Shown here: piece by piece, positions 9,900-50,950 of the stretch
Layout: every line of letters starts with the position of its first letter
Numbering within the stretch: position 1 is the stretch's first letter
Source: Cornus controversa
Lineage: Eukaryota; Streptophyta; Magnoliopsida; Cornales; Cornaceae
Direction of reading: 5' to 3'
DNA: 64,000 nucleotides
NCBI GenBank assembly: GCA_026545225.1
Contig: CM048847.1
Span: forward strand, 6,014,001 to 6,078,000
Position numbers and translations under genes: made by a program
The notes under the pieces: generated by a model
What the model was told of the DNA's origin: nothing
The model's input: the letters and a program-made list of their open reading frames with translations, nothing else
Database searches by the model: none

Positions 9900-10165
9900 A
9901 TCTCGATTGATCGAGATGGAATCTCGATTGATCGAGATTAAATCTCGATTAATCGAAATTCAAGCGAGATTTTCACCCTCTCGGGACCCCAGACCTGCAA
10001 TATCTCGATTGATCGAGATAGGGGTCTCGATTGATCGAAATTCCTCCTTCCTGGACTCCAAAAATCACCATAAATCATCACCCTTTCGATCAATCGAAAT
10101 GGGGACTTCGATTGATCGAAATAGGCATCTCGATTGATCGAGATTAAATCTCGATTGATCGAAAT
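9900..10165 (-). repeat. Array of 16-bp palindromes, TCGATYRATCGA type
   Basis: About eight copies of units such as TTTCGATTGATCGAAA and TCTCGATTGATCGAGA with spacers of roughly 0-60 bp. Arms are 7 bp and only the central dinucleotide breaks symmetry. The spacers match those in the LTR at 18656-18910, where the palindrome core is different. Confidence 0.9.
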
Positions 10166-10883
10166 GCACCTCCAGGGACTTCCAACAGCCTCATACATGA
10201 TCCAATTGGAACCCAATCAACATTCTATCATCCTAGAACCCCTCAAACAAGATTAACAACATAAATAGAAGGTTCCAACATCAATCTCACAATCAAGATC
10301 ACATTCATAATCGAATTCATACACCAAAATGAACCATTTCTTTCACAAACACAACCCATTCAAAATGGAAGCATCATCAAACTGAATTAAATGCCGCCAT
10401 GGGCATTACATAAATTAAACCATTGTCTCTCCACACCCAACAAGTTTAAAATCCCATACATACATCCAAATTACATTCGTCCAAAGCACAACCATAACAA
10501 AAAGGAAGTCACATGCCACAAGCCGGCATGGATAGCCACAAAAATGCTCAAAACTCAAAAGATAGCAAAACCACCACTAGTGTTCCACTTGGACACTCAC
10601 GTCCCATCCGTTATCGGCGCTTTATCTGTAAAATATTTAGAATAAAGGGATGAGCACCACTGCGGCTCAGTAAAGGTTCCCCAACCCTTCTAAGTGCCGA
10701 CCCGACACGACCTACATGGAATGCATATGATTACACTACATGACACATCCAATATCTCACAAACACATCAACAAATGCAATTAAAGAGGATTGCATATTT
10801 CACGAATCATGTACAACATGTTCAAAACATAAAAGCATTAAAGTGAGTAAATGCTCTCTCTCTCGGTCCTCATCCAATACCCT

Positions 10884-11207
10884 ACATGATTGGTCCGCTC
10901 CGAGGATCATGTAACCTTGGACAACTCCGATAACCATCCTATGACCGGGACAACTCCGAAGGGTCATTCTACCATAGCAATATATAGGATTGCCATAGGG
11001 TGAGGGGGCAACTCCGAGGCTCACAAATCATGGACATTCTCCGATAAACATCCTATGACCGGGACAACTTTGAGGGGTCATTAGTATTGGACAAACTCCG
11101 ATCCTAGATATTAAGCCTTAGTATGGCGGGTCCGCTCCGAGGGGCATACATGGTGGATAATTTTACCACATTACACAACACGATTGGACCACTCCGAAGT
11201 CCCGTGT
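10884..11207 (-). repeat. Array of stem-loops with a 15-nt loop
   Basis: Stem pairs with exactly 15 nt between arms: ACATGAT/ATCATGT (10884-10912), ATGACC/GGTCAT (10941-10967), GTGAG/CTCAC (11000-11024), ATGACC/GGTCAT (11055-11081), TATGGC/GGCATA with one mismatch (11122-11148). Loops share the core GGNMCNACTCCGAGG. A further CTCCGAAG copy lies near 11190. Confidence 0.85.
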
Positions 11208-12399
11208 ACCTCTTTTGCGTCATTTTTCCCGCAACTTCCCACATATGCAATATGAATGCATAAACACATGATACTTTATTTTCATGCTCAACTCATGTTC
11301 ATTGATACTAAAAAGAAGTAACAAGCATATTTTCCATCACCACACACCACATATAGCACATATATGTATAACACATGCATAAATCATCTTATATGCATAC
11401 AACTTCAAAATTAGCATATTTTACTCATGCTACATTCAATGCATAACTTTAGCACATAGAACTAACATGCATTCAACTACCACATTCTCACATATAATCA
11501 CATATATGACACTTGGTACACATTTTTCCACATATACATCAAATTGAGCATATAAAGCCTATGTATCAATTTCTTACACTCACATGCTTCAAACCCACAT
11601 GCTACCACCAACGCAATATACATAATTGTGAAAAGATAGGACTCTAGAGAAGAAGAAAATACAACTTTTCACACCTCTCATCATCCTAAAGCATGTGAAA
11701 CACAACCTACACCTCTCTTCTTTACCCGAAACCCTAGAATCGACAATTAGAAGAGAAGAAGAACCCCTACCTCGAAAATGAAGGCCTTCCAAGCACTTCA
11801 CCAATTTTCCAGCGGAGTCTACCTTGCCGAATCACCACTTTGTTCGGTTCAAATGGAAGTCCTAGCCGTCCCCTACGTATCTCCCTCCTTTGGCGAGTCT
11901 TGAATCCAAGCCGAACGGGTCCGAAATGTAGAGAGAAGGGAGAGCTTTGAAGAAGGAGAGCTTTAGAGAGAGAAAGAGGTGTGAGATATGGCTGAATATC
12001 TCTGCCACTGATATTTAAAATATCTAGGGCTTGCAAAAAGACTAAAATGCCCCCCGGCCACTTAACGTACCTTTCCGGACTCCTTTTTCGATTCCGAAAA
12101 TTCCTATGGTCTCGAAATCAGTTCCTCTACTCTCTAAACATTTCATCTAAGCCATTTCCAAAAATAAATATTTTTGAAAATTTTCTGAATTACCGGGCCC
12201 ACTTAAGTCGCACCCCGGGCCCCAGTTTGACCAAAAAGTCAAACTTCTTCAATTCTCCCGAAAACTTACCAAAACCTTAAAAACACTTCCCAAACATGTT
12301 TTCCACACTCAAAACATGTTAAACATCACTTGAAATGCATTTATGACAATTATAATGCGAAAAATGCAAAACCGGCCAAAATTGGTCACGGTCTCTACA

Positions 12400-12946
12400 G
12401 ATGTAATGATATATGCAAGCAACATAACGGTATGCATGACTGGTATAAAGGTATGCTTAGACAAAACAACAGTATACATGGGTACTATAACGGTATGTTT
12501 GGACAACATAACAGTATGGTAAAACAGAGGCAAGGTATCCCTTTCCTTTGGTGTCTTAAAAACTCATAGGGAGAAATCTATATATAGGATGAAGTTCATG
12601 GCCGACTAATACATCCTAAAAAGGCTCAGCTCTCGAATCTTCAAACCTCTGGTTACTCCTTCTCTCCCAGAGGATCCAGAGTAACCTTTAACCGGTTGGT
12701 GATTCGAGTGGGGAGAATTCCATCCCAGTGATATAATGTTTTTTGGATAACTGATGGTCCAGTGGGCATGCTAGGTTTTAATATCAAAAGGATCGGTAGT
12801 GTTTGCCTCGGTTTCGTCTCCCAGAAACAGAGGGTGATTAATGTCACCAAGCCACACCTCAAATCACAATCACTCCTGATATCATATTTTGATATCAAGA
12901 CTTCACCTCAATTCTCTCACCAAGGTACCTTACTCTAATACCATGT
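12400..12946. other. Spacer between two LTRs, with a 21-bp minisatellite
   Basis: No gene is supported. At 12429, 12450, 12471, 12492 and 12513 a GGTATG or AGTATA motif recurs every 21 bp exactly. An open frame (12330-12569) reads it as five heptapeptides such as YKGMLRQ and YNGMFGQ. At 12735-12800 the sequence resembles 62365-62440 on the far side of L0. 12800-12946 looks like degenerate leader/LTR-end modules, with a relic primer site TGGTATTAGAGT on minus at 12929-12943. Confidence 0.6.
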
Positions 12947-14240
12947 TGTCAAACCCCAATTTCCATCTCCTAGAAATTGAGGGTGACGTTCACCCATTAC
13001 ACTCTAACGGTGTAAAGATCGTGACCAATTTTGGGCGGTTTGCATTTTTCGCATCATAAATGCATTTTGAGTGATTTTTAACATGTTTTGAGTGTGGAAA
13101 ACATGTTTGGGGAGCATTTTAAGGGTTTTGGAGGGTTTAGAGAAGTTTAACTTTTTGGTTAAATCGGGGCCCGGGATGCGACTTGAGTGGGCCCGGGAAT
13201 CCACAAAATTCTCAAAAATATTTATTTTTGGTAATGGCTTAAGATGAAATTTTTATAGAGTAGAGGAAGTGATTTCAAGGCCGTAGGAGTTTTTGAAATC
13301 GAAAATGGAGCCCGGGAGGGTACTTTAACTGGCCGGGGGCCTTTTAGTCATTTTTTGCACCCTGGATATTTTAAATATCTGTGGTTTAGAATCCCAGCCA
13401 TTTCTTATGCTTCCTTCCCTTTGTAAAACTCTCCATCTTCTCCTCTCTACATTCTCTCTATATTTCAGAGCCGTTTAGGTGCGGTTCGGGTTTCGTTGAA
13501 GAAGGGAGATACGTACGGGACGGCAAGAGCTTCAGTTTAAACCAAACAAATTTGTGATCCAGTAAGGTAGACATCTCTAGAAATTTGGTGAAGTGCTTGG
13601 AAGGCCTTCAAGTTCGAGGTAGGGGTTCTTTTTCTCTTCTAATTGTTGATTCTAGGGTTTCGGGTGAAGATGAGAGGTGTAAGTTATGTATCACATGATT
13701 TAGGAGAGTGAGAGGGGTGGGAAGTTAGATTTTCTTCTTCTCTTGAATCCTATCTTTTCACATTTGGTGTTCCTTGTGTTGGTTTTAGCATGTGGGTTAA
13801 AGTGTGTGAATGGAAGAAATTGGGTATATAAGTGTTACGTGCTCAATTTGGGGTTTTTGTGCAAATGTGTAACCTTGTGTCATATATGTGATTATATATG
13901 GAATATGTGAAGGTTAAATACATGTTAGTTCTATGTGCTAAAATTATGCATTGAGTGTAGCATGAGTAACGTATGCTAATTTTGAAGTTGTATGCATATG
14001 AGAGGTTATATGCATGTGTTATACATATATATGCTATATGTGGTATGTGGTGATGGTAAACATGATTTATACTTCCTTTTAGTATCAATGAGCATGAGTA
14101 GAGCATGAAGATAAAACTCCATGTGTTTATGCATTCATATTGCATATGTGAGAAGTTGCGGGAAAATGACGCAAAAGAGGCACACAGGGCTTTGGAGTGG
14201 TCCAACCTTGTGGTGAAATGTGGTAAAATTATCCATTATG

Positions 14241-14448
14241 TATGGCCCTCGGAGTGGACCCGCCATACTAAGGCTTAATGCCTAGAATCAGAGAATGTCC
14301 AAGATTTGTGAGCCTTGGAGTTGTCCCCTTACTCTATAGCAATCCCATATATTGCTTTGGTAGAATGACCCCTCAGAGTTATCCCGGTCATAGGATGGTT
14401 ATTGGAGGTGTCCAAGGTCACATGATCCTCGGAGCAGGCCAATCATAT
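14241..14448 (+). repeat. Stem-loop array with 15-nt loops
   Basis: TATGGC/GCCATA (14241-14267), GTGAG/CTTAC (14308-14332, one G-T pair), ATGACC/GGTCAT (14365-14391) and ACATGAT/ATCATAT (14420-14448) each enclose exactly 15 nt with core CCTCGGAGTNGNCCC. The TATGGC unit is perfect here but mismatched in the 9389-12399 LTR. Confidence 0.85.
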
Positions 14449-15505
14449 AAGGTATCGAATAAGGGCTGAGAGAGAGAGCATTTACATTTCCTTAATGCTT
14501 ATATGTTGTAAGATGCTAAATATGAGCTATGAAGTATGCAATCCATTTTAATTGCAACTTATTGGTGTATTTGTGAAATTCTTGACCTGGCATATAGTGT
14601 ATGCATATGCATTCAATGTAGGTCAGTGTCGAGTCGGCACTTAGGAGCATTGGGGTATCTCTACTGAGCCGCCGTGGTGCTCACCCCTTTCTTCTAAACT
14701 TTTTTATAGATAAGGCACCGATGATGGATGGAACTTGAGTGTCCAAGAAGAGTTCTAGTTATATTTTGCTACATTTTGGATATTTATACATTTGGCTATC
14801 TATGTCGGCTTGTGGCACGGTAATGATCTAGTTATAATAATGGTAGAATTTGTTGCATTTTGAACTTTATGCATGAATTCTTGTAATGACTATAAACTTG
14901 GAAAAACCATATGGATGATATGTACCTTTTGAGAAAAATGTGTGTGTTGAAGAGGTATGGCACTATAAAACCATTTTCCCCTTGAGTTATGATTTCTTGT
15001 ATGGTTAATCATGAGTAAATGGAGTATGGAATATATGTATGCATGAGTTGTCGAATGAAGATGGTAAGATAAATTGATGAAATTACATTTCAAGTGTGAA
15101 ATGCATGTTATGTGAATACACTTGATGGCCATTGAGGCATTAGAGTAGTCATTGGGGGGACACATGCCCAAATGTGTCCATTTTGAGTTCAAATAGTGAA
15201 TGAAATATATTTATATAGAAGGACAATTGTATTAGCTTCAATTTGATAGGTCATGGGCTTTGTTTGGATTTAAATTGAGAAAGTTATGTATGTTTTAGTG
15301 CGAGTGTTGGTAATCTGACCTACACCCATTGATTTGAGTATAACCCAGGTTTTGGTTGGTATTTCTAGATGATTCAAGTTGGGTTAGAAACAAGCCATGT
15401 TGAGATGATCCATGCCAAATTTCAAATCAAACTAACTAACGGATTGAGAGATATTAGCATTTGAAGTCAGGTCGAAGAATTCTGCAAAGATTCAGATCAG
15501 GTGTA

Positions 15506-15633
15506 GTTTGAGGGGCCTCAAAGTGAAGTTTGACGCGCCTGGAAACTTTGAGGTGCCTCAAAAAGCCTTTTTGAAGGCATCGTTCCTTCTGGAAGTTTGA
15601 GGTGACTTAAAATGATGTTTGAGGTGCCTCAAA
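15506..15633 (+). repeat. Palindrome array, TTTGAGGTGCCTCAAA type
   Basis: Units TTTGAGGGGCCTCAAA (15507-15522) and TTTGAGGTGCCTCAAA (15618-15633) plus about three degenerate copies. They have 16-bp length and 7-bp arms, as in other LTR-1 copies, but an unrelated core. Confidence 0.85.
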
Positions 15634-16055
15634 GTCTTGTAAATGTTAAAAAGGTGAAATTTTATGATTTTTCATGATTTAGGAATGGAAATAGAATGTC
15701 ATAGGATGCATAGACCGATGTGGAGCCCATTGGGATGGATAATGATGAGTATACGCATAGATAATTACATGCGTATGATTAGCTTCCACGGTAATTTGAG
15801 AAAATTGAGGAGGTTCATTGGGGTTTAATGAATAGGTTCACCTTTGGTCCCTGGGGGTCGAGAAATGGGGCGTGACAAATGGACCATTTTAAGACCTCAA
15901 ATACCGCAAAAGTATAATTCATATGCTTGCACATATGCACATGCAATACAAACCTAACCAACTTTGATGGGCCCCACACGTACTCCCATTCATCTGTCTA
16001 TCAGACAACCTTTATCCATGGATTACGATGTCGAAGTTGGGGCAACATAATCCAG

Positions 16056-16185
16056 ATTTTGATGCATCAAACATGTATCAAAATACATTGCTGAGTTGTC
16101 GGGACTTTAACCTCAAATTCTCTTTAGACATTATGATGCATCGTCTTGTGCATTATAATGCATCGCTAAGATGATGCATCATAAC
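16056..16185 (-). repeat. Palindrome array of L0, GATGCATC type
   Basis: Units such as TTTTGATGCATCAAAC and GATGATGCATCAT; the array resumes at 60836-60853 beyond the inserted LTR-5 element. Confidence 0.75.
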
Positions 16186-17614
16186 AGGGATTGTTGTCAC
16201 GCCCTGATTCCCGAGTCCTGGAAACCTAGGGGTGATTGGGTGGTCACTCTACAATTTAAATGACTCAAACCTTGAATATCCATCTCAAATACATAATATC
16301 ACATGCATAATTACAACTGGAGGTATTATCGAACATAAATGTCCAATACATTTAATCCAAAATAAATCCTCTATACAACCTTCTGGACAAAATATAAAAT
16401 CTACGTAAATTCAATCACTGTAGAGACCGTGACCAATTTTGGCCGGTTTTGCATTTTTTGCATTTTATTTACCGTAAATGCATTTTGAGCGGTGCTTAAC
16501 ATGTTTTTAATGTGGGGAACATGTTTATAAAGTGTTTTAAAGGTTTTGAAAAGTTTTCGAGAGGGTTAGAGAAGTTTGACTTTTTGCTCAAACCGGGGCC
16601 CGGGATGCAACTTAAGTGGGCTCGGGAATTCAAAAAATTCTTGAAAATATTTATTTTTGAGAATGGCTGAGATGAAATGTTTAGAGACTAAAGAAAGTGA
16701 TTCCGAGGCCGTGGGAGTTTTCAAAATCAAAAACTGAGTCCAGGAAGGTGCGTTAAGTGGCCGGGGGGTATTTTGGTCTTTTCACGACCTAGGGACCTTA
16801 AATGGTCAAATCTACAGAGATATTTCATATCTCACGGCTGATTCTCTCTCTATATTGCTCCCACTCCTTCTCTATTCCTTCTCTCTAGGTTTTGAAGGTA
16901 TTCGGGTGTGATTCATGTTCCGCCGAAGAAGGGAGATACGTAGGGGACGACTAGGGCTTCCCCTTGAATTGAACAAATTCATGGTTCAGCAAGGTTGACA
17001 TTGCTAGGATTTTGAGAAGTGCTTGGAAGGCCTTCATTTTAAAGGTAGGGGTGTTCTTTCTCATCTACTTGTCGATTCTAAGGTTTCGGGTGAAGTGGTG
17101 AGAGCTACGGGTGTGTATTTTATGTTTTAGAGATGTAAGAGGGGTGGGATAAGGTGTTTTTATTCTTCTCTTGAGTCTCTTGTATGCAATAGAAGTGTAT
17201 CTCCTAGTATGCATGATGTGAGGGACAAATGCATGAAAATGTGAGAGAATGAGAGCATATACGCTTATGTACTTAATGTGGTGTACATGTGTGATTATGT
17301 GCATGTGAGACATATATGTGCTATATGTTGTAAGTGAGTTAAATGCATGCTATCTTTGTATAGAAAATGTGTGCATTGGTGAAACATGACTAAAATGTGC
17401 TTAGGTGAAGTTTTGTGAGCATATGTGGATAGTATGCTATATTTTACATGTATAGGTAAATATATATGTGGTGTTGTGGAGATGAAATGCATGCTGTGTT
17501 TATTCAATTAGCATGCGTACTGTGAAGCATGAATTTCAAGTGCTTGATTCATATATGTCCGAAATGCATATATGGGGCCGTTGTGAGAATGACGGGGAGG
17601 TATAGAAGGGTAAC

Positions 17615-17880
17615 ATTTTTACCTTGGAGTATGTGATGACTCGGTGAAAGACTTAAAATGATTCAACCACCTGGGAGTATGTGATGACTCGGTGATGAAT
17701 TTCAAAACTATCTAGTCACCTTAGAGTATGTGAGGACTCGGTGATAGACAATCTAATTACCTTCGAGTATGCGATTACTCGGTGATAAATCACTTAACCA
17801 CTTTGGAGTAAGTGATGACTCGGTGATGAATTCCAAAACCAACTAATCACCTTGGAGTATGTGAGGACTCGGTGGCCGTG
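17615..17880 (+). repeat. Tandem stem-loop array, TCACC...ACTCGGTGA type
   Basis: About six units of 43-44 bp. Each has TCACCTTGGAGT and ACTCGGTGA, which can pair (TCACC/GGTGA, then GAGT/ACTC across a TTG bulge). The same array recurs in the 3' LTR at about 30620-30885. Confidence 0.85.
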
Positions 17881-17910
17881 TTGGAATTATATGGGGAAAA
17901 TGTGTCGGTG

Positions 17911-17933
17911 ACATGGTTGGTCAAGAACCATGT
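17911..17933 (+). repeat. Hairpin ACATGGTT/AACCATGT
   Basis: Perfect 8-bp arms around a 7-nt loop GGTCAAG; repeated at 30915-30937. In LTR-2 (22055-22077) both arms change together to ACATGATT/AATCATGT, keeping the pairing and loop length. Confidence 0.85.
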
Positions 17934-17939
17934 TGGGAT

Positions 17940-17978
<39 letters not shown>

Positions 17979-18655
17979 TGGATGAAGTTGCTTTCATTTG
18001 ATTTATGAAGCATGATATGTGTTTCATGCATTCATATATATATATATGCATTGTTGTGAATGGATATGATGTGTGTTGAATGATATGTGAAATGTTGTGA
18101 CATGCATTCATGCGTGTCGGGTCGGAACTTAGGTGGGTTGGGGTATCTCTACTGAGCCATAGTGGTGTTCACCCCTTTAGTCTAAATATTTTACAGATAA
18201 AACGTCAACAACGGATGGGACATGAGTGTCCAAGTGGAACTCTAGTAGTGGTTTTGCTATGTTTTTAATGTTGGCATTTTGTGGCTATCCATGCTGGCTT
18301 ATGACATGCGACTTTGTTTTGAGTTATGATTATATTTTGGACAATTGTAACTTTGATATAAGTATTAGACTATAAACTTGTTGGGTGTGAAAAGACAACG
18401 GTTTAGTTTATGTAATGCCCATGGTGGCACTTAGTTTATTTAATGGTGTTTTCATTGTGAATGGATTGTGGTCGTGTAAGAGAATAATTCATTTCGGTGT
18501 TTGATTCATTTATAAATGTGATATTGAATGTGAGATTGATGTCGGAACCTTTCATTTATGTTGTAGACCACGTATGAGGGGTCCTAGGATGATAGAATGT
18601 TGATTGGGTTTCACATGGACCTTGTATAGGGTTATTAGAAGTCCCGGAAGGTGCA

Positions 18656-18910
18656 TTTTAATCGTGCGAAATGTCTATTTTGCACAATCAAAATCCCTAT
18701 TTCGAGTGTGCGAAGGGGTGATGATTTATGATGATTTTTAGGGTCCAGACAGGGGCAATTTCGCACAATCGAAACCCCCATTTTGATCGTACGAAATATT
18801 GCAGGTTCAAGGTCCTGAGAAGGTGAAATCTTTGCATATTCGAGATTTTTTTCGCAAAATCGAGATGCCAGTTTCGCACAATCGAAATCCCATTTTTGCA
18901 CAATTGAAAT
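18656..18910 (+). repeat. Palindrome array, TTTCGCACAATCGAAA type
   Basis: About eight units in both orientations with spacers that match those of 9900-10165, although the unit cores differ (CACAAT versus ATCAAT inside TTTCG...CGAAA). The 3' LTR has the same array at 31486-31742. Confidence 0.9.
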
Positions 18911-19347
18911 TACTATTCACATCATTTTTCAAAACTTCATTTCGACGTAATTTCTTCGTTCTAGATTGGAATTGTAAGGACCGGAATTTATTTTGACCGG
19001 TCCCGGATGAATTTTGACCGGATTTATTTTTTTTCGAATAAATTAAAATTTTTGAAAAGATGTCGTATATATATATATATATATATATGGAATTATATAT
19101 ATATATATATATATGAAGATGAGGATATGGATATATATATATATGTGGGAATATATATATATATATACATATGGTATTATATGTGTAAGTGTATTTAGAA
19201 AAATACACATGTAGAGTTGGATACATATATGCATATGTATTATTTTATATGGATAATATATGTGGCTGAGGGAGAATAAGGAAACATGTGATACAAAGCA
19301 TGTGGACCAAAATAGAGAGAAGGAGGAGACCAAGTGTGGTCTCGGCT

Positions 19348-19459
19348 GGGAAAGAAGAAAAGAGAGAAGAAGAAAAGAAAAAGAAAAGAGAAAAGAAGAA
19401 AAGAAAGAGAAAAAGAAAAAGAAAAGAAAAGAAAAAAAAAGAAGAGAGAGAAGGAGAAG
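19348..19459 (+). repeat. 112-nt uninterrupted purine tract
   Basis: Only A and G from 19348 to 19459. Homologous tracts in other LTR-2 copies: 36121-36212 (92 nt) and 63004-63094 (91 nt), and pyrimidines on plus at about 7920-8025. Confidence 0.95.
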
Positions 19460-21694
19460 TCGGGGAGAGAGAGAGGGGCCGAGATCGTGAAATCGGGGGA
19501 GAGAAACCGAGATGGGGGAGGAGCTCGGCGGCGCTCCGGCGGCTCGTGGGCCCGTTCGGCGGTAGCTGCTCCGGCGTGAGCACCGCTGGGTTCGGCCGTG
19601 ACGTTCGGACGGGTGGTCCGTGGTGGCGTGACTGAAGGAAGATGGTGGGGTTCGGTGGTTGGTTCGTGGGTTCGCTGGCGGCGGGCCGGTGACGGCGGCT
19701 CTCGGTGGTCTGCCGGTGGTGTTGCTCGGTGGTTCGGCTGAGCACGGCTGGGTCGTGTTTGGCTCGGTTGGGTTTGGTTCTTGGTGGTCCCTCGGTTTTC
19801 GGACGGATCTGATGTGGGTTTGGCTCGATTTTGGGTCCGATCATGGTGGTTCGACCGTGAGGGAGCCGAAGATGGTAGCCAGCTTGGTCAGCTAGCTGTG
19901 GGTTTCGATTGATGCATTGTTGGTTGCCATGGGTGGAGATTCGACAGGGGTGATTGGTGCTTGGCTTCGGCTGGTTTGGGTGTTGCAACCGTGAGGTTGC
20001 AGTAGTGGCTAGTGGAGGCTCGGCCTTGGTGATTTGATTTTGGGTAGCCATTCTGATTAAAGTGGCCAGTTCAGCTTTGGGTTGATGGTGGTGACAGGAT
20101 GGCTTATGAGTTTGTTTAATTTTGTTGTGGTGATGGGTTCACAGAAAATGAACCTCTAATGGTGAGTCCTAATATATGTAGGCGGCTTATATGCATAAGG
20201 TGGACATGGGGGCTCGGTTAGCTTGTACAGTGGAGGGTTTGACTGGGTTGGGCAGCCATGATGGACCTTGTTTGGGCAGCCCGTAGCGGTCAAAGGTTGC
20301 GGTTATTTGGGCCAAGAATGGTGGCCTTGTGGTTTTGGGCCCTCATAGATGGTGGGCTTGGACATGGGAAAATAGGTTGAGGTTTGGACTTGGCCAAAGT
20401 TAATTGGGCCGAACACGAAAATTAAAAGGAAATGAGGTGGTCCAGTGGATTTGATCGTATGAGCTTTGACCATAGGTTGGACCAAGCATGGAAACAAAAA
20501 GAGAAGGAACGAAAGCGGGTTCGTGGGTTCTGAAGCAGGACTGGACTGGACCGGACTTGGTGGAGGCCGCTTTGCAAGCGCGGACTTGGCGAAAGCGGGA
20601 CCTAAGGCAAGTTGATTATTGCCTCTATCTCATACAGATATTTTATGTATGTTGAGTAATTTACATATGTCTCAATTTAATCATATGTGGTATGTGTATA
20701 TACATATATATGTAGGCACATATATATATATGTGTATAGGGAATGTGGTACATACATGGGATGTGAGAGGATATACATATGTGTGTGTGTATATATATGT
20801 ATGTGCGGGTTTGGGAAGCGATAACATGTTAGATTTATCGCCTGTTTGCATTGTGATATGCATGCATGTATAGATTAAAGTCTATGAAAAGTATGCTAAA
20901 TAATATCTGTTTAGCTAGGTGTCGTCTTGTATGCATATGTGGTTCTTATGCATGATGTTCAGTATATATATATATATATAGGTGATTATATATATATGGT
21001 TGTAGCGGTAAGAATGCATGCTAAGTTGAGTATAACTTTTGGCGAGCATTTGAAAAGCATGAAAAGTGCTAAGTGTTTTATATGTTCTTGATACATATGT
21101 GGGTGATGTAATAAATATATATGTGTATATATATATATTGTGATTGGAATGCATGTTAGCTACTTGTAGTGAATACATGCATTGAATGAGAGCATGACTG
21201 TACTTATGCTAGTGTACGTGCATATAGGACTTATATGCAAGATTGGACATATATGTGTTTATATGTGGGAATGTGAATGTGAGATGCGTGCTAGCTTCAT
21301 TTATATATATATTGAACGCATGCATTGGTTATAGCATGATAAAAATGTGCTAAGTTGAAGTTGTTTGCATATAAGAGGTATTATGCGGGTTTTAAACATG
21401 TATGTGCTATATGTGTTGGAATGTGATGAAAAGCATGCCAAATACTTCTTTTTAGTATCCCTAAGCATGGGTTGATGCATGAAAATATTATGCTATGTAT
21501 ATATGCATCCATATTGCATATATGGGAGGGAAATGACACATATATGGTTATATGTTGGTTTATGTGGAGATGGAATGCATGCTATGTACTTTTAACTAGC
21601 TTAGGCATTGTGAGACGTGAACATTGAATGTTCGGTCGTTATATGTTCGAAATGAATATATGGTGCCGTTGTGAGAAAACGGGGAAGTGTGGTT

Positions 21695-22020
21695 GAGTCA
21701 CCTAGAGTAGGTCATTACTCGGTCACAGTGTCGAAGTGGTCTCATCACCTGGTAGGACCGATGTTCTCGGTGGTGTATTGTGAAATGATCTCATCACCTG
21801 GTAGGACCGATGTTCTCGGTGGTGCATATCGAGGTAGTCTCACCACTTGGTAGGACCGATGTTCTCAGTGGTATATTCCTAAATTATCTCATCACCTGGT
21901 AGGACCGATGTTCTCGGTGGTGTATTCTAAACTGGTCTCATCACTTGGTAGGACCGATGTTCTCAGTGGTGCATTCCGAAATTATCTCATCACTTGGTAG
22001 GACCGATGTTCTCAGTGATG
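21695..22020 (+). repeat. Tandem stem-loop array of LTR-2
   Basis: Seven to eight units of about 43 bp with CACCTGGTAGG, ACCGATGTTCTCGGT and GGTG. ACCGA/TCGGT pair around a 5-nt loop and CACC/GGTG pair outside. The homologous region of 35745-39927 (38440-38800) has units with GTCACC...GAGTA...TACTCGGTGAC. Confidence 0.85.
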
Positions 22021-23571: not shown

Positions 23572-23583
23572 TGGTATCAGAGC
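23572..23583 (+). promoter_or_regulatory. Primer-binding site, tRNA-Met type
   Basis: TGGTATCAGAGC three bases after the 5' LTR of the 16419-32252 element. The leader 23584-23826 matches the minus-strand element's leader (CTAGGTTGGAATA...GGACGAAGGGTGAGAC). Confidence 0.9.
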
Positions 23584-23982: not shown

Positions 23983-24002
23983 TGGGTTCACAACCATCAC
24001 GG

Positions 24003-28228: not shown

Positions 28229-28268
<40 letters not shown>

Positions 28269-34821: not shown

Positions 34822-34864
<43 letters not shown>

Positions 34865-39927: not shown

Positions 39928-41020
39928 ATCTATCCATTCTTTTCCAGCATCTCCCTGGGAACCCCAAGATCCTGACTGCTTTGCCAAGGGCCTCTCAAAC
40001 CTTCTCATATATCATCCTATAACAAATCAGTATTCTTTGCATTTCGATGCATTGAAATACTGATTTTAATGCATCACACAAGTATTGTAATAAATATTGA
40101 GAATCACTAGATTTTGTATGGACACTTGGCCTCAAATCTATGATGCATCATCCTACGCATTACGATGCATAACTGGATTTCGATACATCGTAACAGGTGT
40201 TTCGATGCATCAAAATTCCCCTATTGCTAATTCTACAGAATTTCTACATATGGTCCTTTGGCCTCATGTGATCTTAAGTCATCATACAATGGCCAATTCA
40301 ACAACATTTAATCATCATAATGAGGTCTCTACCATCATTCATAGGTCTTAAATCATACAGTCTCTCAAAATCAACCCTCAAGCCAAATATTCTCATCATT
40401 TTTACATCTCAATTCATTTCACATAATCAAAACATCTAATTCGTAGACATATAAGTCATCACATGTCCATGACTCCAAGAATTAGATCAATTCTGAATCC
40501 TCATCCGACTATCTCAATAACCCTTTTTAGACATACTCTGTCTAGAATCATGGTAGCACAATACCACCAATAATCTTAGTCAATTAAGTGACTCCTAGTC
40601 CTTAATGGTTGTGCAAGATTGTAACACAAATCTAAATCGCCAAACTCTCAGTTTAGAAACCTCTAAGGCGAATCATACCCTTTTCATCAACACTAGACTC
40701 TTACTCTTAAGTCTATCACAACATGTCTATTTCAACATCACAGTCCGTTTGATTTCAAACCTCTACCTGGGTTTCCAAATCCTTCTCAAACCAACCACCA
40801 TGCTCACACAATTTTAGTTTTTGAAATCATAAATTACAATCCTTCTTGTGTGCCATAAGTCACACTCTAACTGTCTCGTCACACATCACAATAACACTAT
40901 CTCCCATATCAGTTCTGAGAATAATCACATCAGAACTAGTCATGTCTCAAACCAAACCAAGTCTTATATGACAATCAAAAACTCAATCCCTCAGGGTCAC
41001 ACTACCCATAATGGTACATC
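39928..41020 (-). other. LTR-5 element interior, piece 2, with GATGCAT palindromes
   Basis: Palindromes TTTCGATGCATTGAAA (40042-40057) to TTTCGATGCATCAAAA (40200-40215), with TTTCGATACATCGTAA between. 40410-40790 is a diverged copy of 48900-49290 (shared ATTTTAGTC-like and AATACCACC...ATCTTAGTCA blocks). No gene seen. Confidence 0.6.
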
Positions 41021-41908
41021 CATAGACCAAATTGTCCCCCGTGATGGAAATCCCACCTCAACAAGTGTGTCAATGGACAAAGTTGCGTCTCAATGACAAC
41101 AAGTACACCCTCAGGTGTCCCAAATGGCTAAACCACCCCTCAATGGAAATCACAAAATCTAGGGTTGTGTCCATAGACAAAACTGCGCTTATAGTGATGA
41201 TAACCAACAATAATAGATGGGCTAATAGATAAAACTGTGTCTCCCACCACTGATGTGCCAATAGACAAATCTGCGTCTAAGTCACAACATCACTAAAATG
41301 TGACAATGGACAAAATTGTGCCCAAATAGACAAAATTGCGTCTAAATAACAATGATTGGGTGATAGACAAAACTGCGTTCATGCAACTCCGATCCTCCAA
41401 CTAATGTGCCAATAGACAAAATTGTGTCTAAGTGACAACACTATAATGGTTGTGACAATAGACAAAACTGCGCCCAGAATCACCTCCACCTTGCCAATAG
41501 ACAAAACTGCATCTAAATGACAAGGGTGTAGAGACCGTGTCCAATTTTGGCCGGTTTTTCAATTTTTGTCATTTATTGCTTTAAATGCATTTTAAATGAT
41601 GTTTAACATGTTTTGAATGCGGGGAACATGTTTAGAGGGCTGGTATAGGGTTTTGGAATGTTTTGGGGACCTTTGGCAAAAGTTGACTTTTTTTTAGTTT
41701 GGTCAACCTAGAGGCGTGGGCCTTGTGGGCCCAAAAATTTTAAAAGTGTCGGAATGACTTCAAAATTTGAGGATACCTTAAATAAAATATTTGACGCGCA
41801 ACGGAGTTGATTTCGTGTCAATCTGAGTTACGAAACTCCAAAAATGAGCCCGAGAAGGTTTTACAAAAAGGTGATGGCAAACTAGTAATTAAGAGGAGGT
41901 CACTTAGC

Positions 41909-41916
41909 TATAAATA
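41909..41916 (+). promoter_or_regulatory. TATA box of solo LTR-1A
   Basis: TATAAATA in the context AGCTATAAATACTAAGAGAG, about 380 bp from the LTR start, where an LTR promoter is expected. Confidence 0.6.
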
Positions 41917-42792
41917 CTAAGAGAGATCAGCTCTTCTCTCATTTTCATCCCAGCAGCCGAGAGAGAAAGATATATACGTATATACATACAAGCTTCATCT
42001 CCTCTTCTTCTTCACTAGATTTGAGGGCCTTAGAGTGGGATTTTGATTTCACCAAAGAAGGAAGAAATGATCTACGCATCGAGGGCTCGAGATAGATCGG
42101 TTCAAAAATCATTTCGAGGAAGCTGGGTTTTGAGAGATTGGGGGAAATCAATTGGAAGCTCTTCCAATTTGAGGTAGGGGTGCTAGACTCACTTCTACTT
42201 TGATCTTGTGATCCCTTTCTAAATATCATAAGAGATAGCTTTTGATTTCTTGAACCTAGGTCTATGTATATACATATATATATGTATACCATGGTGATTT
42301 ATGCATGTATAAGTGTCCAACATGTTAGTTAGGGCTTATGCATGGTATCTATGTGCAAATGTGACTATAATGCTTTTGGTGAAAAATGTGTTTGTTTGAT
42401 GAAAACATGAAAATATGATTTTCTAGCAAAATCCATGAGCATAGTGATTTTCATGATGTGAGTGTGATAGCATTGTGACAATCTTGAGTTGGAAGGAAAA
42501 TGCATTGATTTGATGAAAAATGCATGCATTGTGTGACTATGTGCATTGGTGTGATTATATGCACTATATGATGATTTTGGGGCATGAGTGTGAAATTAAG
42601 ATAAGGGGAAGGCCCCTAGGGTGAAAGACCCAAAACTTGGCCAAGAGGAGGTGCTCCCTTCGGGTTAGTAACCCGATAAAGCACAAGCAGAGTTTGGGTG
42701 CCGAAGAGACCTTTACTATTGGAGTGATGAGAAAGTCCATTTGGATTGATTTGGTGTGAGTTATATATATATAAGTTGTGACTTGTCCAATT

Positions 42793-42830
<38 letters not shown>

Positions 42831-43696
42831 GTATTTGCACTTTATGTGAAGCATCATGCATGATTTGAAAAACGTGAATGTTTGGGTAAAAATGCATGAG
42901 CATGTGCATTCATGCATGGCTTGCGGGTTAGAGTGGGGATGGGTGGATCATTTCTACTAAGCCGTTGAGATGCTCACCCCTTTATACAAAACATTTTCAG
43001 ATAAGGCGCCAATGGAAGACGAAGCATGATTAGCTCTATGGATATGTTGAGCTTATTTTTGGACTTTTACTCTTTTGAGATGTAGATAAATGTCCATGGC
43101 GGCTTGTGGCATGTGGACAATGGTTGTGGTGTTGCCTTTACATTTGTAACCTCTTATGTATGTGAAATTCAAATGTAAGTGCCACACTTGTAGGAAAGTG
43201 ATTTTTGAGAAGTGTATGTATAATGGCTTCCTTCATTTGAGACTTGTTGAATGTATGCAAAAAGGGCCATTCAAATTCTTATATGTATGGTTCCATGGAT
43301 TATGTATGGATTTGGGATTTAAATGGATGAATGTATTCTTTTGTCTCTTGTATTTAAATTTCATGGATATGAATGTTTAGAGTTGTGGATTTATGTTGGA
43401 ATCATGGTTGTAGGGTCTCAATGTATAAGTTAGATTGCGTGGTTGGATTAATGAAGATCACCTTTGAAAATAATAAGGATGTTAGGTTCACTTGAATTTT
43501 ATGGGCATGGTGGACTTTGGATAAATTTTCTATGATTATACAAGATTTGAGATTCAAATGTATAGGTTGATGTGTGAGTGTGATTTTATATCAGTGGTAG
43601 ATGATTTGTATGAGATATGAATGATCTAAGGTGGTTTGGTTGAGATTTGGGTCCAAATTGATCTTGTATAGGTGTTTGAGATGTTCTGGGCAGTGC

Positions 43697-43990
43697 ATTT
43701 CGATTAATCGAGATGCCCATCTCAATTGATCGAAATGGTTGCGAGGTTTTAAGGATTTTCAGGCTTTATTTCGATTAATCGAAGCCCCATTTCGATTAAT
43801 CGAGATGCCCATCTCGATTGATCGAAATGGTTGCGAGATTTTATGATTTTTCAGGCTTAATTTCGATCAATCGAAGTCCCAATCTCGATTAATCGAAATA
43901 TTGCAGATCCAAGTTACCGAGAGGCTGTTTTCTTCGATTAAAGGGGTCAAAATCTCGATTGATCGAGATCCAATCTCGATTGATCGAGAT
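43697..43990 (+). repeat. Palindrome array, TCGATTRATCGA type
   Basis: About ten units such as TTTCGATTAATCGAAG and TCTCGATTGATCGAGA; followed by ATTACTATTCACATC, which also borders the arrays at 18910 and 31742. Confidence 0.9.
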
Positions 43991-44565
43991 TACTATTCAC
44001 ATCAAGGTTCAAAAATTGTCCGAACTTCGTTTCGATGTAATTTCTTCGTTTCAAATCGGAATTGAGCATGGTTTTTTTTTAAATTGAGTATTTTTGAAAG
44101 CTCTATCCAATGGAATAGGTTTCATAATCAAATTACATCTGTGTGAAAAGTTGTGGTCCAGAACTTAGTGGTTTATAAGTATGGAACCAAAGATGAAAAT
44201 CATTTGCAAGGGCCATTGATGATCTAATGCCACCTTAAGGGTGTGCATATAGAATGCTTCCACAATAGAATAGACTATAATGAGATTAAGGTGTGGGAAC
44301 TTGAGGTGAAATTACGGATTCACCCCCGCTTCCTTCGCTCCTAACCGGGTGTCAGAAACCGGGGCGTGACAAAGGGTCTCAACAATGGATGGGTCAATAG
44401 ACAAAGCTGCATCCATAATACACCAATCCTCCAACTGATGTGTCAATAGACAAAACTGCGTCTAAATGACAACACCACATGAGTGTGATAATGGACAAAA
44501 CTGCATCTAGAATCATCACTACTATGTCAATAGACAAAACTCCTTCTAAATGACAGCACCACAAT

Positions 44566-46214: not shown

Positions 46215-48855
46215 TGTCACGCCCCAGAATCCGGACCGCCGAGACTTCCCCGGACCGACCTCGAATCCCGAGTGTGAACTTGGTCACTCAACCCCATAAA
46301 CTATCAAAAGCACCCTCATACGATAGTATCTATCCTTGATACCATGCCATAATGCCCCAATTTCCCCACTCTCGGAAGACCGGAGGTTAACTGTCCATTT
46401 AAATCCAGTGAACCCTCATTACACTCATTTTCAGCGGAAGCTTAACTTAGTTGTTGCATATAAATTCACACAACACTACCTCAACCAATCCCTAAGGGCC
46501 CTACATCGAATCACACACTTTAGAGAACATTTACATGTCCACACCTTTGAAAATCACTCACTTTCGAGCCTCAAAACTTTCTGTGTTTGGAATCTGAAAC
46601 TGAGGCTTATATCATTGGATAGAGAATCCAAAAATACTCAAGTTCAAAAAAAACCACACTCAATTCCGATCTAGAACGAAGAAATTACGTCGAAATGAAG
46701 TTTTGGAAAAAGCTGTGAATAGTAATCTCGATCAATCGAGATTCATCTCGATCAATCGAGATTTTGACCCCATTAATCGAAGAAAATAGCCCCTCGGTAA
46801 CTTGGACCTGCAATATTTCGATTAATCGAAGTTGGGACTTCGATTGATCGAAATAAAGCTTAAAAATTCATAAAAATTCGCCACCATTTCGATCAATCGA
46901 AATGGGAGTTTCGATCAATCGAAATGGACATTTCGATTGATCGAAATGCACTTCCCAGCAGCTCTAAAACACCTATACAAGATCTATTTGAACTCAAATC
47001 TCAACCAAACCACCTTGGATCATTCATAAAACATATAATTCATCCCCCAATGATATAATATTATACTCACACCTCAACCTACACATTTGAATCTCAAATC
47101 TTGTATAATCATAGAAAACTCATCCTAAATTCTCAATGCACATAAAATTCAAGTGCATAAACCATCCTCATTTTCCAAAGATCATATTCATCAACTCATA
47201 CATACAACCTAACTCACACATCAAAATCCTACAACCGTGATTCCAATATAAATCCACTCTTCAAAACCTTCATATCCAAGAGTTCAAGATATAAAGAATA
47301 AAAAGGATACATATATCCATTTAAGCTCCACATTCATATAAAATCCATGAGACCATACACATAAGGATTCAAATGAATATACAAGTTACATACACCGTGA
47401 ATGTAACTATAAATCAACATAATCCACATGCCACATGCCGGCATGGATAGCCAAAAACATAGTCCATACATATATCTCAAAAGATCCCCAAAATGCACCA
47501 AAATGCTCCAAGTAAGGAAGCAAGCTCTTTTCATCCATTCTCGGCTTCTTACCTGAAAAAAATGTTTGGGGGAGCGGGGTGAGCAACACTGCGGCTCAGT
47601 AGGAATGCCCCTCCCCTCCTAGGTGCCGACCCGACACCGACCTACATGTCCCTCACTACATGGCATGTAAAATGCTTTCATGCACACGACAACATACAAT
47701 CCAAGTATGAATGCACTCATTCATATATCATGTTTTTCAATGCATATCAATGCTATAACAAGCCTAGCATGCATTCTAACATTCAAAACAACACATGGTC
47801 ACATATATGTCATAAGGCATGCATATCACTCTCATATGCCTACAAACCATAACCTAGCATATTTTGATCATGCTTCAACAATGCACACACTTGCTATAAA
47901 ATAACCTAGCATGCATTCAACATTTTTACACACACCCAACCAACATATAATCATATGATTGCACCCCAAAATACACATAACCTACATATGCATATAATAC
48001 ACAATATAGCTAATCATGCTCTTATTTTGCACACTTTGCACATATTCAGCCCACACATCATATATTCATCAAGATGGATCTATCAAGCATGCATAATCAC
48101 AAGGGAAGAGGAAATATAAAAATTCAGCCCCTTGCCCATCTCTCTCACATACAAACTCAACCGAAAACCTCTCCTAACCACCCAAAACCCTAGAATCGAC
48201 AACTAGAAGAGAAGAAACACCCCTACCTCGAATTTGGAAGCTATCCAAGCAATCTCCAAAATTTCCAGCGATGTCCACCTTGCCGGAAGTCGAGTTTGTT
48301 CGGTTCAAACCGAAGCCCTAGCCGTCCCCTACACACTTTCCTTCTTCGGCGAATCACGAATCCAAGCCGAATGCACCCGAAATGTAGAGAGAAGGTGGAG
48401 GGATGAAGTGGGAGAGATTTAGAGAGAGAGAGAGCCGTAAGAAATGGCTGAGATATCTCAGCCCTAGATATTTATAATATCTGGGGTGCCAAAAGACTAA
48501 AACGCCCCCAAGTCACTTAACGTACCTTCCCGGGCTCCTTTTTCGATTTTGAAAACTCCTACGGCCTCAAAATCGCTTCCTTAACTCATTAAACATTTCG
48601 TTACACTCAAAATCAAAAATAATTATTTTTCGGAAATTTTCCAGATTTCTGGGCCCACGTGGACCGCATCCCGGGCCCCTGTTTGACCAAAAAGTCAAAC
48701 TTCTCTAAATTTTCCGAAAACTTCCAAAAACCTCATAACATGTTTCCAAACATGTTTTCCACTCTCAAAACATCCAAAACATCATTCGAAATGCATTTAT
48801 AGCAAAAATGATGAAAATTTTTGAAAACCGGTCAAATTTGGTTCCGGTCTCTACA
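46215..48855 (-). mobile_element. Solo LTR-1 (2641 bp), minus strand
   Basis: Perfect target duplication AACCG (46210-46214, 48856-48860). On minus it runs TGTAGAGACCGG to ...GGGGCGTGACA. Palindrome array at 46724-46947 (TTTCGATCAATCGAAA). The last ~136 bp (46215-46350) are a module ending in a relic primer site (CTTGATACCATGCC), inside the LTR bounds. A TATA-like ATTATAAATA lies on minus near 48466-48477. Confidence 0.92.
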
Positions 48856-50171
48856 AACCGACTATCAACTTATCCTTTACTTAACCATCATATTCAACCT
48901 ATGATACAACTTCTCAATTCTTTTCACGTAATCCCAATATCTTATTTTCAGACATAAAAATCATCGAATGTTCATTGACTCCAGGAATTTTGTCATTTCT
49001 GAGTCCACATTCGACCATATCAATAATCACCCGTTAGACACACCCTGTCTTGAATCCCGGTATTACAATACCACCTATTATCTTAGTCATTTGGCTAAAT
49101 CCCATCCTCAATAATCGTGCAATCAATGCAAAAAAATTTTTAAATCAACAAACTATCTTTTTGGAATCTCTAAGTTAATTCATACCCTATTTCCATCAAC
49201 TCTAGACTTGTGTTTTTGAAGTCCATTTTCACGTGTCTATTTCGACATCACAATCCACTAAACTCCAAACCTCCACCTAGGTTTTTCCAATACTCAGAGT
49301 GTAGGATTTCTAAACAGTGACTACATATCACTATTGACCACATGATGCATAATGCAACACTAATGCTAATGCACAATCACAAGAGTCATATATTTCACAT
49401 AACACATAACGCATAACATGTTAAATCAAATAAGTACGTAGGATGTATGATATGACATGTAATGCATCTTAACAACTCAATATCCTAGCCGTCAGGCTAA
49501 CACTAGATAACTACCCTTGACCACGCATAGTCCCAGCACATCCTCTGCCTGAGCAAACGTGATAACACGACCCAGATTTCCCTAGTATACTGACACATAC
49601 TAGAATTGAACATCAAGAGTGGTTTATACCAACCTACTCTCATCCACTATAGTCATTGGTAAACACCTACCAATCTATCCATATCTCATAAGCCCCTAAG
49701 TATTTGTAAGGACTCAAACACTCGCAACATCCCTTGCGTTATCTCTTCAATACTCACTAGCAAGAATTAATCGCCAAGTCAAGGATCTAACTCAACCAAC
49801 TTTGGGAGTTTTACCAACTGAATTTAATTTCATACCAACACTTTGATCCTTCATTAGGATTGCTCAAACTAAGCAAATCATTCAACTATCGTCTATAGGC
49901 AATCAAACCTATTGTCTAGACAACTACCAATCTCTACATATCTCTGAATCAACATGTGATTTGACCCTCCATCCTTAGGTATTCGATCCTATGACTTTGA
50001 TACCCTAGGTTTTCAAACCTAATACTTTAACAGTAATCCAAAAATCCTCAAATCCTCAACCTTTACACGTCGCCCCTAGGTATTCCAACCTAGTGCTCTG
50101 ATACAATTCTGGTATCAGGTACATAATCCAACCTTCTCAACCATACACGCGATATGTCCGTTCCCCATCAT
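48856..50171 (-). other. LTR-5 element interior, piece 4
   Basis: 48900-49290 is a diverged copy of 40410-40790. Near 49930-50130, leader-like fragments recur (CTAGGTATTCCAACCTAGTGCTCTGATAC). No ORF or domain recognised. Confidence 0.5.
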
Positions 50172-50471
50172 CCCAAGGTATTCTAACCTAGAGCTCTAAT
50201 ACCATTCTGTCATGCCCCAGAACCCGGACTATCGGGACTCCATCAGACTGACCCAAATCCCGAGTTGCGAACCCATTCACTCAACCCCGTGAAAGACCTT
50301 AACCTCACTCATGCGACAATATCAAGCTCTGATACCATTTTGTCACGCCCGAAACTCAGATCGCTGGGACTCCCCCGAATTGACCCAAATCCTGAGTGTG
50401 AACCCGTTCACTCAACCCCGTGAATGACCTTAACCACACCCAAGCGATAGTATCAAGCTCTAATACCATTC
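50172..50471 (-). repeat. Two tandem ~132-bp modules: LTR end plus primer site plus leader
   Basis: TGTCATGCCCC at 50208 and TGTCACGCCC at 50341 each look like an LTR-end edge and are each preceded on plus by a primer-site complement (GCTCTAATACCA or GCTCTGATACCA). A third primer-site relic lies at 50460-50471 next to the LTR-4 insertion. Between them are matching leader segments (AACCCCGTGAA...GACCTTAACC). Confidence 0.8.
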
Positions 50472-50833
50472 TATCATGTCCCGATTTCTGACTCCTGAAA
50501 ACCAAGGGTAACCTGTCCATTAACTCCAATGAACCCACCTTTTCTCCTTAATTATCGCAGAAGCTTAAATATAACCTTGCATATAGATATACATCATTTA
50601 ACCTTAATCAACCACCATAGGCCCCAAACCATGCCTCGGTTGTATAGCCAACTAGTTGTGGCCTACATATTTTCACACATACGAACCTGTGTGACCATAA
50701 ATTGAGGCTAAAATCTACCCCATTGGATAGAGGATTTAAAAACACTCAATTTCAAAAAAACTAGCACTCAAATTCGATCTAAAACAAAGAAATTACATCC
50801 GTTTGAAGTTTAGATGCAAATGGAGCTACCCAC

Positions 50834-50950
50834 GTTTCCTTCGGTCAGCTGATGGGTAGTTTTGGTTGATCGAAAGAGGACTTTCAGTCGACTGAAACCT
50901 GTTCCCAGCTATTCTAACTATCAGGATCACCCACTTTCGGTCGACCGATG
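50834..50950 (-). repeat. Palindrome array, GTCGAC type
   Basis: TTTCAGTCGACTGAAA (50882-50897) is a perfect 16-bp palindrome; TTTCGGTCGACCGATG (50935-50950), TTTTGGTTGATCGAAA and TTCGGTCAGCTGATGG are variants. Confidence 0.8.

Follow-up and report, generated by a model that had tools for sequence, protein, structure and literature searches.

Arrays of 16-bp units in long terminal repeats of Cornus controversa: a few putative dimer-site types common to unrelated Ty3/gypsy families

We describe arrays of short, near-palindromic units in long terminal repeats (LTRs) of Ty3/gypsy retrotransposons in Cornus controversa, starting from a window of 64,000 nucleotides (positions 6014001-6078000 of contig CM048847.1, assembly GCA_026545225.1; source genome, 772 Mb). 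Each unit is 16 bp long, made of two 7-bp halves around a 2-bp centre, and five unit sequences, called A to E, occur at one position in the LTRs of a family that we call W. Unrelated LTR families in the genome hold the same unit types, A and B versions differ throughout their units, and neighbouring units are mostly 20-22 bp apart. We read the arrays as clustered putative duplex-DNA sites for a dimeric factor encoded outside the families, most likely one or a few host proteins, and give this reading a probability of about 0.6.

Arrays and unit types in the window

Unit scans of the window read as the consensus sequences TYTCGAT-NN-ATCGARA for type A, TTTCGCA-CA-ATCGAAA for B, TTTGAGG-YG-CCTCAAA for C, TTTCRGT-CG-ACYGAAA for D, and TTTCGAT-GC-ATCGAAA for E. 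In a 16-bp scan, the arrays contained up to 8 near-palindromes per 250 bp, whereas none of 10 Markov-resampled windows exceeded 3. Arrays were found at every location named in the original prediction, which had been made from the letters of the window; two that it had overlooked, the remnant in LTR copy c and array E2, are included in the following list, in which lowercase letters denote LTR copies.

9901..10164, minus strand: A-type array of copy a, 9 units at intervals of 21, 22, 22, 59, 22, 60, 21, and 21 bp
15507..15633, plus strand: C-type array TTTGAGGYGCCTCAAA, 5 units, 2 of them decayed, intervals 22, 18, 49, and 22 bp
16057..16184, minus strand: E-type array E1, core GATGCATC; the downstream LTR part runs over 15989-15878 and then 13010-12947, split by solo LTR g
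18656..18909, plus strand: B-type array of copy b, 9 units, intervals 22, 22, 59, 22, 49, 20, 22, and 22 bp
29137..29196, plus strand: A-type array remnant of copy c, 3 units, intervals 22 and 22 bp, truncated by rearrangement
31488..31741, plus strand: B-type array of copy d, 9 heterotypic units, each with AT in one half and CA in the other at positions 6-7; an extra match at 31645 is spacer
40042..40215, minus strand: E-type array E2, intervals 22, 18, 22, 74, and 22 bp
43698..43989, plus strand: A-type array of copy e, 10 units (that at 43932 decayed), intervals 22, 49, 21, 22, 49, 22, 49, 21, and 21 bp
46726..46946, minus strand: A-type array of copy f, 8 units (that at 46767 decayed), intervals 22, 22, 49, 22, 49, 21, and 20 bp
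50839..50950, minus strand: D-type array TTTCRGTCGACYGAAA, 4 units, 2 of them degenerate, intervals 53, 22, and 21 bp

In every class, most adjacent units in the window are 20-22 bp apart, and longer gaps recur at 49 bp (e, f, b, d, and C) and at 59-60 bp (a). The original prediction had not remarked on this conserved spacing. Eight units of array a are homologous to units of b and d; a has one further unit and is missing the sixth unit of b/d. The spacers of arrays a and b had been described as homologous, and they are, with 8 units aligning with 8 of 9.

All arrays had also been placed at the same LTR position between the same two anchor sequences. Common position holds for A, B, and D, since the segment just 3′ of the array is homologous across copies of these types by profile; for D, the LTR 3′ segment (50827-50472) matches the W profile, D being among the training copies, and BLAST aligns 50326-50811 to LTR a. 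The case is weaker for C, with a match to the W LTR 3′-segment profile just downstream of the array (1.5e-14), and for E1, where the W downstream profile gives 9.5e-4 unjoined and 9.9e-8 once the parts on either side of solo LTR g are put together. E2 had no match to the W LTR 3′-segment profile. The first anchor is present in a, b, d, e, f, and the D copy, and the second is exact in b, d, e, and f only.

Unit types are common to unrelated families

Searches of the 772-Mb genome for exact units gave at least 1292 matches to the A-pair pattern, at least 1654 to B, and at least 523 to C, and at least 122 places for D and 147 for E, all of these being lower bounds. Among the controls, reversed patterns of B, C, D, and E gave 0-1 matches, and a single invented palindrome of like format had none. 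We fetched 158 array loci and removed 11 duplicates or neighbours (L036, L038, L040, L042, L046, L048, L050, L056, L059, L061, and L101), leaving 147 in the half-site, family, and interval counts. The loci are the first places listed, so that those for A, B, and C all lie on contig 1, as do 13 of 20 for D and 15 of 20 for E; they were picked for an exact unit or unit pair, and each array thus has at least one unit of its own type by choice.

Flank profiles divided the A arrays (n = 47) into 23 from W and 24 from a second family, X, and the B arrays (n = 40) into 10 from W, 8 from X, and 22 from neither. Nine of 20 D arrays and 12 of 20 E arrays are W-linked, leaving 11 and 8, respectively, that are not. 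No C array (0/20) was assigned to W or X by the 240-bp profiles; 10 of the 20 have the same flank as the C LTR in the window, and 6 of these also match a longer downstream profile of W. The remaining 10 resemble neither that C flank nor W nor X. A further C family (L123, L126, L127, L128, L130, L133, L138, L139, L141, and L142), neither W nor X, has up to 11 units, mostly 21-22 bp apart.

X is also a gypsy family, but its reverse transcriptase (RT) is only 39% identical to that of W and its LTR flanks have no match to W. The X LTR starts with TGATAAG and contains the array about 0.2-0.3 kb in. X codes for gag, protease, RT, RNase H, and integrase, and the order on the minus strand of locus L032 and then L031 is protease, RT/RNase H, integrase. 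There are A and B versions of X with alignable flanks and spacers, the 8 B loci matching the X flank profiles both upstream (2.1e-18 to 4.3e-10) and downstream (5e-10 to 4.7e-8), and at L024 an X array and a W array lie side by side. Early flank clusterings that united W and X were set aside; one had been joined via single profile matches (e.g., L098_L, 4.1e-6), which we read as nested neighbours or low-complexity chaining. X loci also contain 69-76 bp with 83-87% identity to window positions 3821-3894, outside the W LTRs.

The original prediction had assigned a different palindrome to each subfamily, but because W and X both carry A and B, array type is not a subfamily badge. We favour a factor outside the families because W and X, with their unrelated flanks, hold the same two types and further flank groups hold B, C, D, or E; a private factor encoded by a transposable element (TE) would therefore need to act in trans across families. 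Such a factor had been suggested by analogy with VANC, the known TE-encoded reader of motifs in VANDAL elements. An element-encoded, VANC-like anti-silencing protein would read the arrays, the types would shift with the protein, and other families would exploit it in trans, an explanation that we consider quite improbable. The likeness is that noncoding VANC target motif arrays diverge in concert and that related elements differ in motif, according to the relevant passages of PMC5735166. As printed there, however, VANC motifs are 8-9 bp long, in one orientation, and not palindromic, and the analogy is weak: A, C, D, and E units are two-fold symmetric, and B units are heterotypic and in mixed orientation. 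VANDAL elements are, moreover, Mutator-like (MULE) DNA transposons, whereas the present arrays lie in LTRs with 5-bp target-site duplications (TSDs) and gypsy pol. X elements do have an extra open reading frame (ORF) beside pol that matches PF20167 (Transposase_32; L029:4339-5001 and L031:654-1301), but both matches, at 30.7 and 23.5 bits, are under the gathering score of 45 bits. We take this ORF to be possibly of the Athila type. In W, the single 5-kb internal stretch examined, of which three minus-strand ORFs were scanned, had no extra ORF with a Pfam match, and no element-encoded factor covarying with palindrome type was found in it.

Units change together against their background

The suggestion that units had changed in concert against a conserved background was borne out for copy a compared with b and d. 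Between these A and B copies, units differ by 27-30%, spacers by 22%, and flanks by 14-18%, and the unit difference exceeds that of pooled spacers and flanks (41/135 versus 83/473 for a-b, p = 0.0016; 36/135 versus 80/472 for a-d, p = 0.013). Between copies of the same type, the order is reversed. Units differ at 18 of 128 positions (14%) in both a-e and a-f, compared with 34 of 94 (p = 1.9e-4) and 36 of 93 (p = 3.3e-5) spacer positions, and units are likewise conserved relative to spacers in e-f (p = 0.04); from a to e or f, spacers differ by 36-39% and upstream flanks by 41-45%. This reversal of unit and background divergence places the backbone of copy a near b/d and its units near e/f. At 17% divergence, a given two-base change in either half has a probability of about 0.0064 per unit and, if units were independent, about 3e-18 for all 8 comparable units. 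The units are therefore not independent, and selection or conversion acts on them jointly.

Conversion enters into another explanation, that arrays or units pass between families by template switching or conversion and are then homogenised neutrally within arrays. LTR f resembles e as far as the array and a directly after it, a mosaic with its breakpoint at the 3′ edge of the array, and copy c is broken inside its array; flipped conversion could also give rise to both unit orientations. On the other hand, the A and B versions within a family have homologous spacers and the spacing pattern particular to that family, and for this reason whole-array transfer did not make the switch. Transfer unit by unit would need each of the 8 comparable units to be converted over a 16-bp tract without any spacer, and a flip predicts the exact reverse complement of the F unit, whereas units U1 and U5 of b/d differ from it at the centre. 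We therefore think transfer improbable as the source of the pattern.

A and B have been exchanged more than once in W

A tree of W upstream flanks (40 rows: 26 A, 10 B, and 4 E; about 250 columns) was made by a quick method, with the Shimodaira-Hasegawa-like approximate likelihood ratio test (SH-aLRT) as sole support and a midpoint root. On this tree the distribution of label A takes 2 changes, each of them imposed by starred branches, and A and B have therefore switched at least twice in W. All labels together need 3 changes, compared with a mean of 12.7 after shuffling, and 0 of 200 shuffles were as low. In both deep W clades, B copies lie outside A copies, suggesting that B changed to A twice, a direction that we infer because the root is a midpoint. 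The opposite polarity, B derived from A, was drawn from the window, where a, e, and f share A, and was rejected since A lies within B in both W clades of the genome tree. In a tree of W downstream segments (55 rows), D (100*) and E (92) are each a single group, and 2 changes are needed for A and 4 for B; recombination of the kind seen in mosaic LTR f may add noise to this tree.

B units have two different halves

All cores had been taken as palindromic. This is correct for A, C, D, and E, which are two-fold symmetric, but the B unit TTTCGCACAATCGAAA is built from two unlike halves, CGCA and CGAT, which are distinguished at positions 6-7. All 9 units of d are arranged in this way, as are 6 of the 9 in b, whose remaining 3 are one letter off, and the units of b and d are in mixed orientation. 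Among sampled B units, 214 of 266 are CA/AT, 10 AT/AT, 2 CA/CA, and 40 other, the last comprising mutated halves and, in part, spacer picked up by the loose frame (L035, L047, and L060). By comparison, 311 of 323 sampled A units are AT/AT. In the genome, at least 74 places hold an exact CA/CA unit, whatever its centre, whereas exact B units with a single fixed centre number at least 1654. The two unlike halves of B would suit a heterodimer or an asymmetric dimer, and the like halves of A a uniform state.

Spacing, position in the LTR, and RNA folding

About two turns of B-DNA correspond to 20-22 bp. Among intervals of 30 bp or less in the sampled arrays, this spacing accounts for 173 of 219 in A, 128 of 174 in B, 84 of 106 in C, 38 of 42 in D, and 46 of 72 in E, a period that suits dimers side by side on duplex DNA.

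In seven W LTR starts, a TATA-like stretch lies about 0.4 kb in (ATAAATA in 4 of 7, TTAAATA in 2 of 7, and weaker in b). In most of the seven it is followed by a CT-rich patch; all seven have a donor-like site, GGTAGGGG, and a later acceptor-like CAG/TAG is common to five aligned W copies. The array occupies positions 2236-2499 of LTR a, about 1.8 kb downstream of the TATA-like box, and the W array would be transcribed if that box is used. A second kind of array, of longer inverted repeats, is present within LTRs at 10827-11130 (minus strand), 17619-17874, 30623-30879, 21730-22030, and 38480-38790. The arms vary between LTRs, being TCACCTTGGAGT...ACTCGGTGA in b/d, ATGACC...GGTCAT in a, and other variants in two nested 4.2-kb LTRs, and in W these repeats lie inside the intron-like stretch.

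The position downstream of the TATA-like box would be consistent with the arrays acting as RNA, in which case transcribed arrays would form long hairpins for dimerisation, packaging, or as targets of small interfering RNA (siRNA), and palindromicity would be kept by unit-unit pairing. Strong folds are predicted for the A arrays (z = -8.3 for a, -9.4 for e, and -8.2 for f) and for d (-5.2), C (-5.5), E2 (-3.7), and E1 (-2.7), but D (-0.4) and b (-2.7) count against the RNA explanation; the strength of the A arrays is expected because any array of mutual complements must fold. In maize, Sirevirus palindromes are small-RNA hotspots, according to passages of PMC10760457 and PMC5311732. B units, however, have lost self-complementarity in mid-unit, and, among the 512 orientation patterns, the one observed is equalled or surpassed in stability by 434 in d and 433 in b. 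The order of units is equally unremarkable, 69 (d) and 200 (b) of 300 permutations being at least as stable. Maintenance by RNA pairing is thus disfavoured for B, whose observed orientation and order bring no folding benefit, and we regard the RNA explanation as unlikely overall.

Arrays as sites for a host factor

In the reading that we favour, each 16-bp unit would be two 7-bp half-sites around a 2-bp spacer, and units about two helical turns apart would bring several dimers onto one face of the DNA. If the preferred half-site changed, for example between CGCA+CGAT in B and CGAT+CGAT in A, every unit would follow, by selection or very short conversion tracts, while the spacers stayed. Unrelated families would hence hold the same site types and move between them. 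Binding might bring activation, chromatin opening, anti-silencing, or silencing. The original prediction that the units are sites for a dimeric sequence-specific factor is thus partly supported: helical-period spacing, orientation-blind B units, and types common to unrelated families all fit.

Several observations weigh against this reading. Recombination is active at W arrays, LTR f having broken at an array edge. The unit excess between A and B copies is not significant when spacers alone are the standard (p = 0.19 for a-b and 0.46 for a-d), and B copies compared with e or f have no unit excess (p = 0.48-1.0). Downstream flanks differ by 30% in a-e but by 6.5% in a-f, below the unit difference, because f is a mosaic. 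In the W tree, made by the quick method from about 250 columns, one of the two clades depends on two B copies (L035 and L075). The X tree separates A from B in a single split, so that repeated change is confined to W, and the A-B unit difference of 33% is not above that of the rest, 37% (11 A and 3 B rows, two B rows being from the same place). X thus has common types and a whole-array difference, with neither repeated change nor faster unit change, and A and B switched once there if both X versions descend from one ancestor. Spacings of 16-19 bp are the second most common, 16 bp in X meaning abutting units, and a distance of 1.8 kb past the TATA-like box is an odd place for promoter-proximal sites. 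Finally, strict arm-to-arm covariation within units was rejected. The two arms show no covariation within a class (Fisher p = 0.28 for A positions 2/15), with within-class shuffles matching or beating the data in 1843 of 2000 cases, compared with 0 of 2000 across classes.

More tentatively, and with less confidence than in the reading above, the arrays may be a fossil record of change in the specificity of a host factor. Unrelated LTR families share a few putative dimer-site types and would have moved between them in parallel, W having changed between CGCA+CGAT and CGAT+CGAT at least 2 times and X having both states. A shift possibly from heterodimer to homodimer, or two successive factors, would have obliged all families depending on the factor, or evading it, to alter 4-10 sites in each element.

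Relation to known systems

The closest known system, ahead of VANC motifs and overlooked by the original prediction, is the repeated-motif (RM) boxes of Sirevirus (Ty1/copia) elements, high-copy palindromes clustered in LTRs with a sequence that varies by element (Bousios et al. 2010, PMC2829016). Judging from the passages on RM boxes there, the two systems share this clustering, dyad symmetry (B here being only half-symmetric), and a short centre. The Vitis RM CGGTCGACCG is the core of type D, and Osr9 TTTTCGGACWTRTCCGAAAA has the TTTCG..CGAAA frame too (PMC2829016). There are also differences. Sirevirus elements are copia, with integrase before RT, whereas W and X have the gypsy order, RT before integrase, and the W gag matches Retrotrans_gag/Ty3_capsid. 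The Sirevirus core CGG-CCG, given for all but Tnd-1 in those passages, is found here in D only and is absent from A, B, C, and E. RM boxes are described as lying just upstream of TATA, while the W array would lie downstream of it if the TATA-like box is used. The same passages say nothing of types common to unrelated families within a genome, of a switch between half-sites, or of a 20-22 bp spacing.

In maize, the portions of PMC10760457 and PMC5311732 that deal with Sirevirus LTR cis-region palindromes describe them as rapidly evolving and discuss them as hairpins and siRNA targets, and in the former the palindrome is the commonest motif in structured Helitron regions too. There one motif dominates and is linked to hairpins and siRNA; here the B arrays bear no sign of upkeep for folding. 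Because of the Sirevirus palindromic arrays and the maize precedent of one motif in unrelated elements, we do not propose a new category. RLG_Cereba and RLG_Quinta of einkorn are a further likeness, being two families in one genome with conserved regulatory regions and thought to be cotranscribed, but they are explained by cross-mobilisation of a nonautonomous partner, and the relevant passages contain neither palindrome arrays nor parallel switching (PMC11302176). A literature search covering mostly titles and the starts of abstracts, with subscription journals thinly represented, found no report of such gypsy-LTR arrays with this unit and spacing rule, of types common to unrelated families with parallel A and B versions, or of a two-half site like B.

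Family W and other features of the window

The window is a thicket of nested plant LTR retrotransposons in which the array-bearing copies are solo or broken. W LTRs are about 2.6-3.0 kb long, start with TGTAGAGACCG or close to it, and end with GGGGCGTGACA or close to it. Some are followed by a primer-binding-site (PBS)-like sequence, TGGTATCAGAGC, which we take to be complementary to initiator Met tRNA. TSDs of 5 bp are perfect at solo LTRs e and f and have one mismatch at g.

8179..9135, minus strand: truncated gag ORF of element a (Pfam Retrotrans_gag, 2.2e-17; Ty3_capsid, 8.3e-13)
9389..12399, minus strand: LTR copy a (W), a 5′ LTR, from boundaries and alignments, with PBS-like TGGTATCAGAGC at 9374-9385 and gag downstream
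13011..15877, plus strand: solo LTR g (W-related), near-perfect TSD AACGG/AATGG; downstream profile 1.5e-14 at 15655-15877
16419..18972, plus strand: LTR copy b (W), first part, broken after 18972 by a solo LTR; PBS-like site at 23572
18973..23134, plus strand: solo LTR of 4.2 kb from a different family, nested 63 bp past array b, with TSD GGAAT; palindrome and unit scans gave no A-E array in it
23135..23453, plus strand: 3′ part of LTR copy b, continuing 16419..18972
26964..29193, plus strand: LTR copy c, ending inside its own A-type array and fused to a pol fragment
29169..30151, plus strand: broken pol fragment, RNase H and Integrase_H2C2 (zinc finger) matches in separate ORFs
30095..32252, plus strand: LTR copy d, truncated at the 5′ end, from alignments
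41527..44371, plus strand: solo LTR e (W), TSD AAGGG
46215..48855, minus strand: solo LTR f (W), TSD AACCG, mosaic

Over 29190-30110, copy c passes into the pol fragment and then into another LTR piece. Tandem copies of LTR end plus PBS-like sequence (variants of GGGGCGTGACA...TGGTATCAGAGC) lie behind LTRs at 9389-9533 and 50208-50470.

A W internal stretch between two A-bearing LTRs (L163) has, on one strand, matches to protease (RVP_2), RT (RVT_1), RNase H, H2C2, rve, SH3_Tf2-1, and, weakly, Chromo (E = 0.0096, below the cut-off, residues 555-598, after SH3_Tf2-1). By these predicted pol domains W is a Ty3/gypsy family and probably a chromovirus. From its long LTRs alone we would guess that it is of the Tekay/Del kind; Retrosat-2 is listed under Del/Tekay in a passage of PMC6317226, and LTRs of more than 3.2 kb are given for it in one of PMC3485330. 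A search for gag homologues gave a single uninformative match, and a scan of viral contigs gave none. Elsewhere, positions 1-1150 and 4252-5401 form a 1150-bp direct repeat, 100% identical, enclosing a 306-amino-acid stop-free frame (1377-2294) that had no Pfam match; the pair looks like a very young small LTR element.

Conclusions

Divergence of retrotransposon cis-regions is commonly regarded as a private matter of each family. The present families, being independent, serve as replicate experiments, and a trans-acting factor can be suggested from DNA sequence alone because the same types, spacing, and half-site states recur. The arrays extend Sirevirus-type palindromic boxes to Ty3/gypsy elements, with a rule of a 16-bp unit at a period of mostly 20-22 bp. 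As A and B differ by two bases per unit, they form a defined bait pair for the factor. If our reading is true, these sites would point to a protein on which retrotransposons depend and would show whether conflict between host and element alters its DNA-binding specificity.

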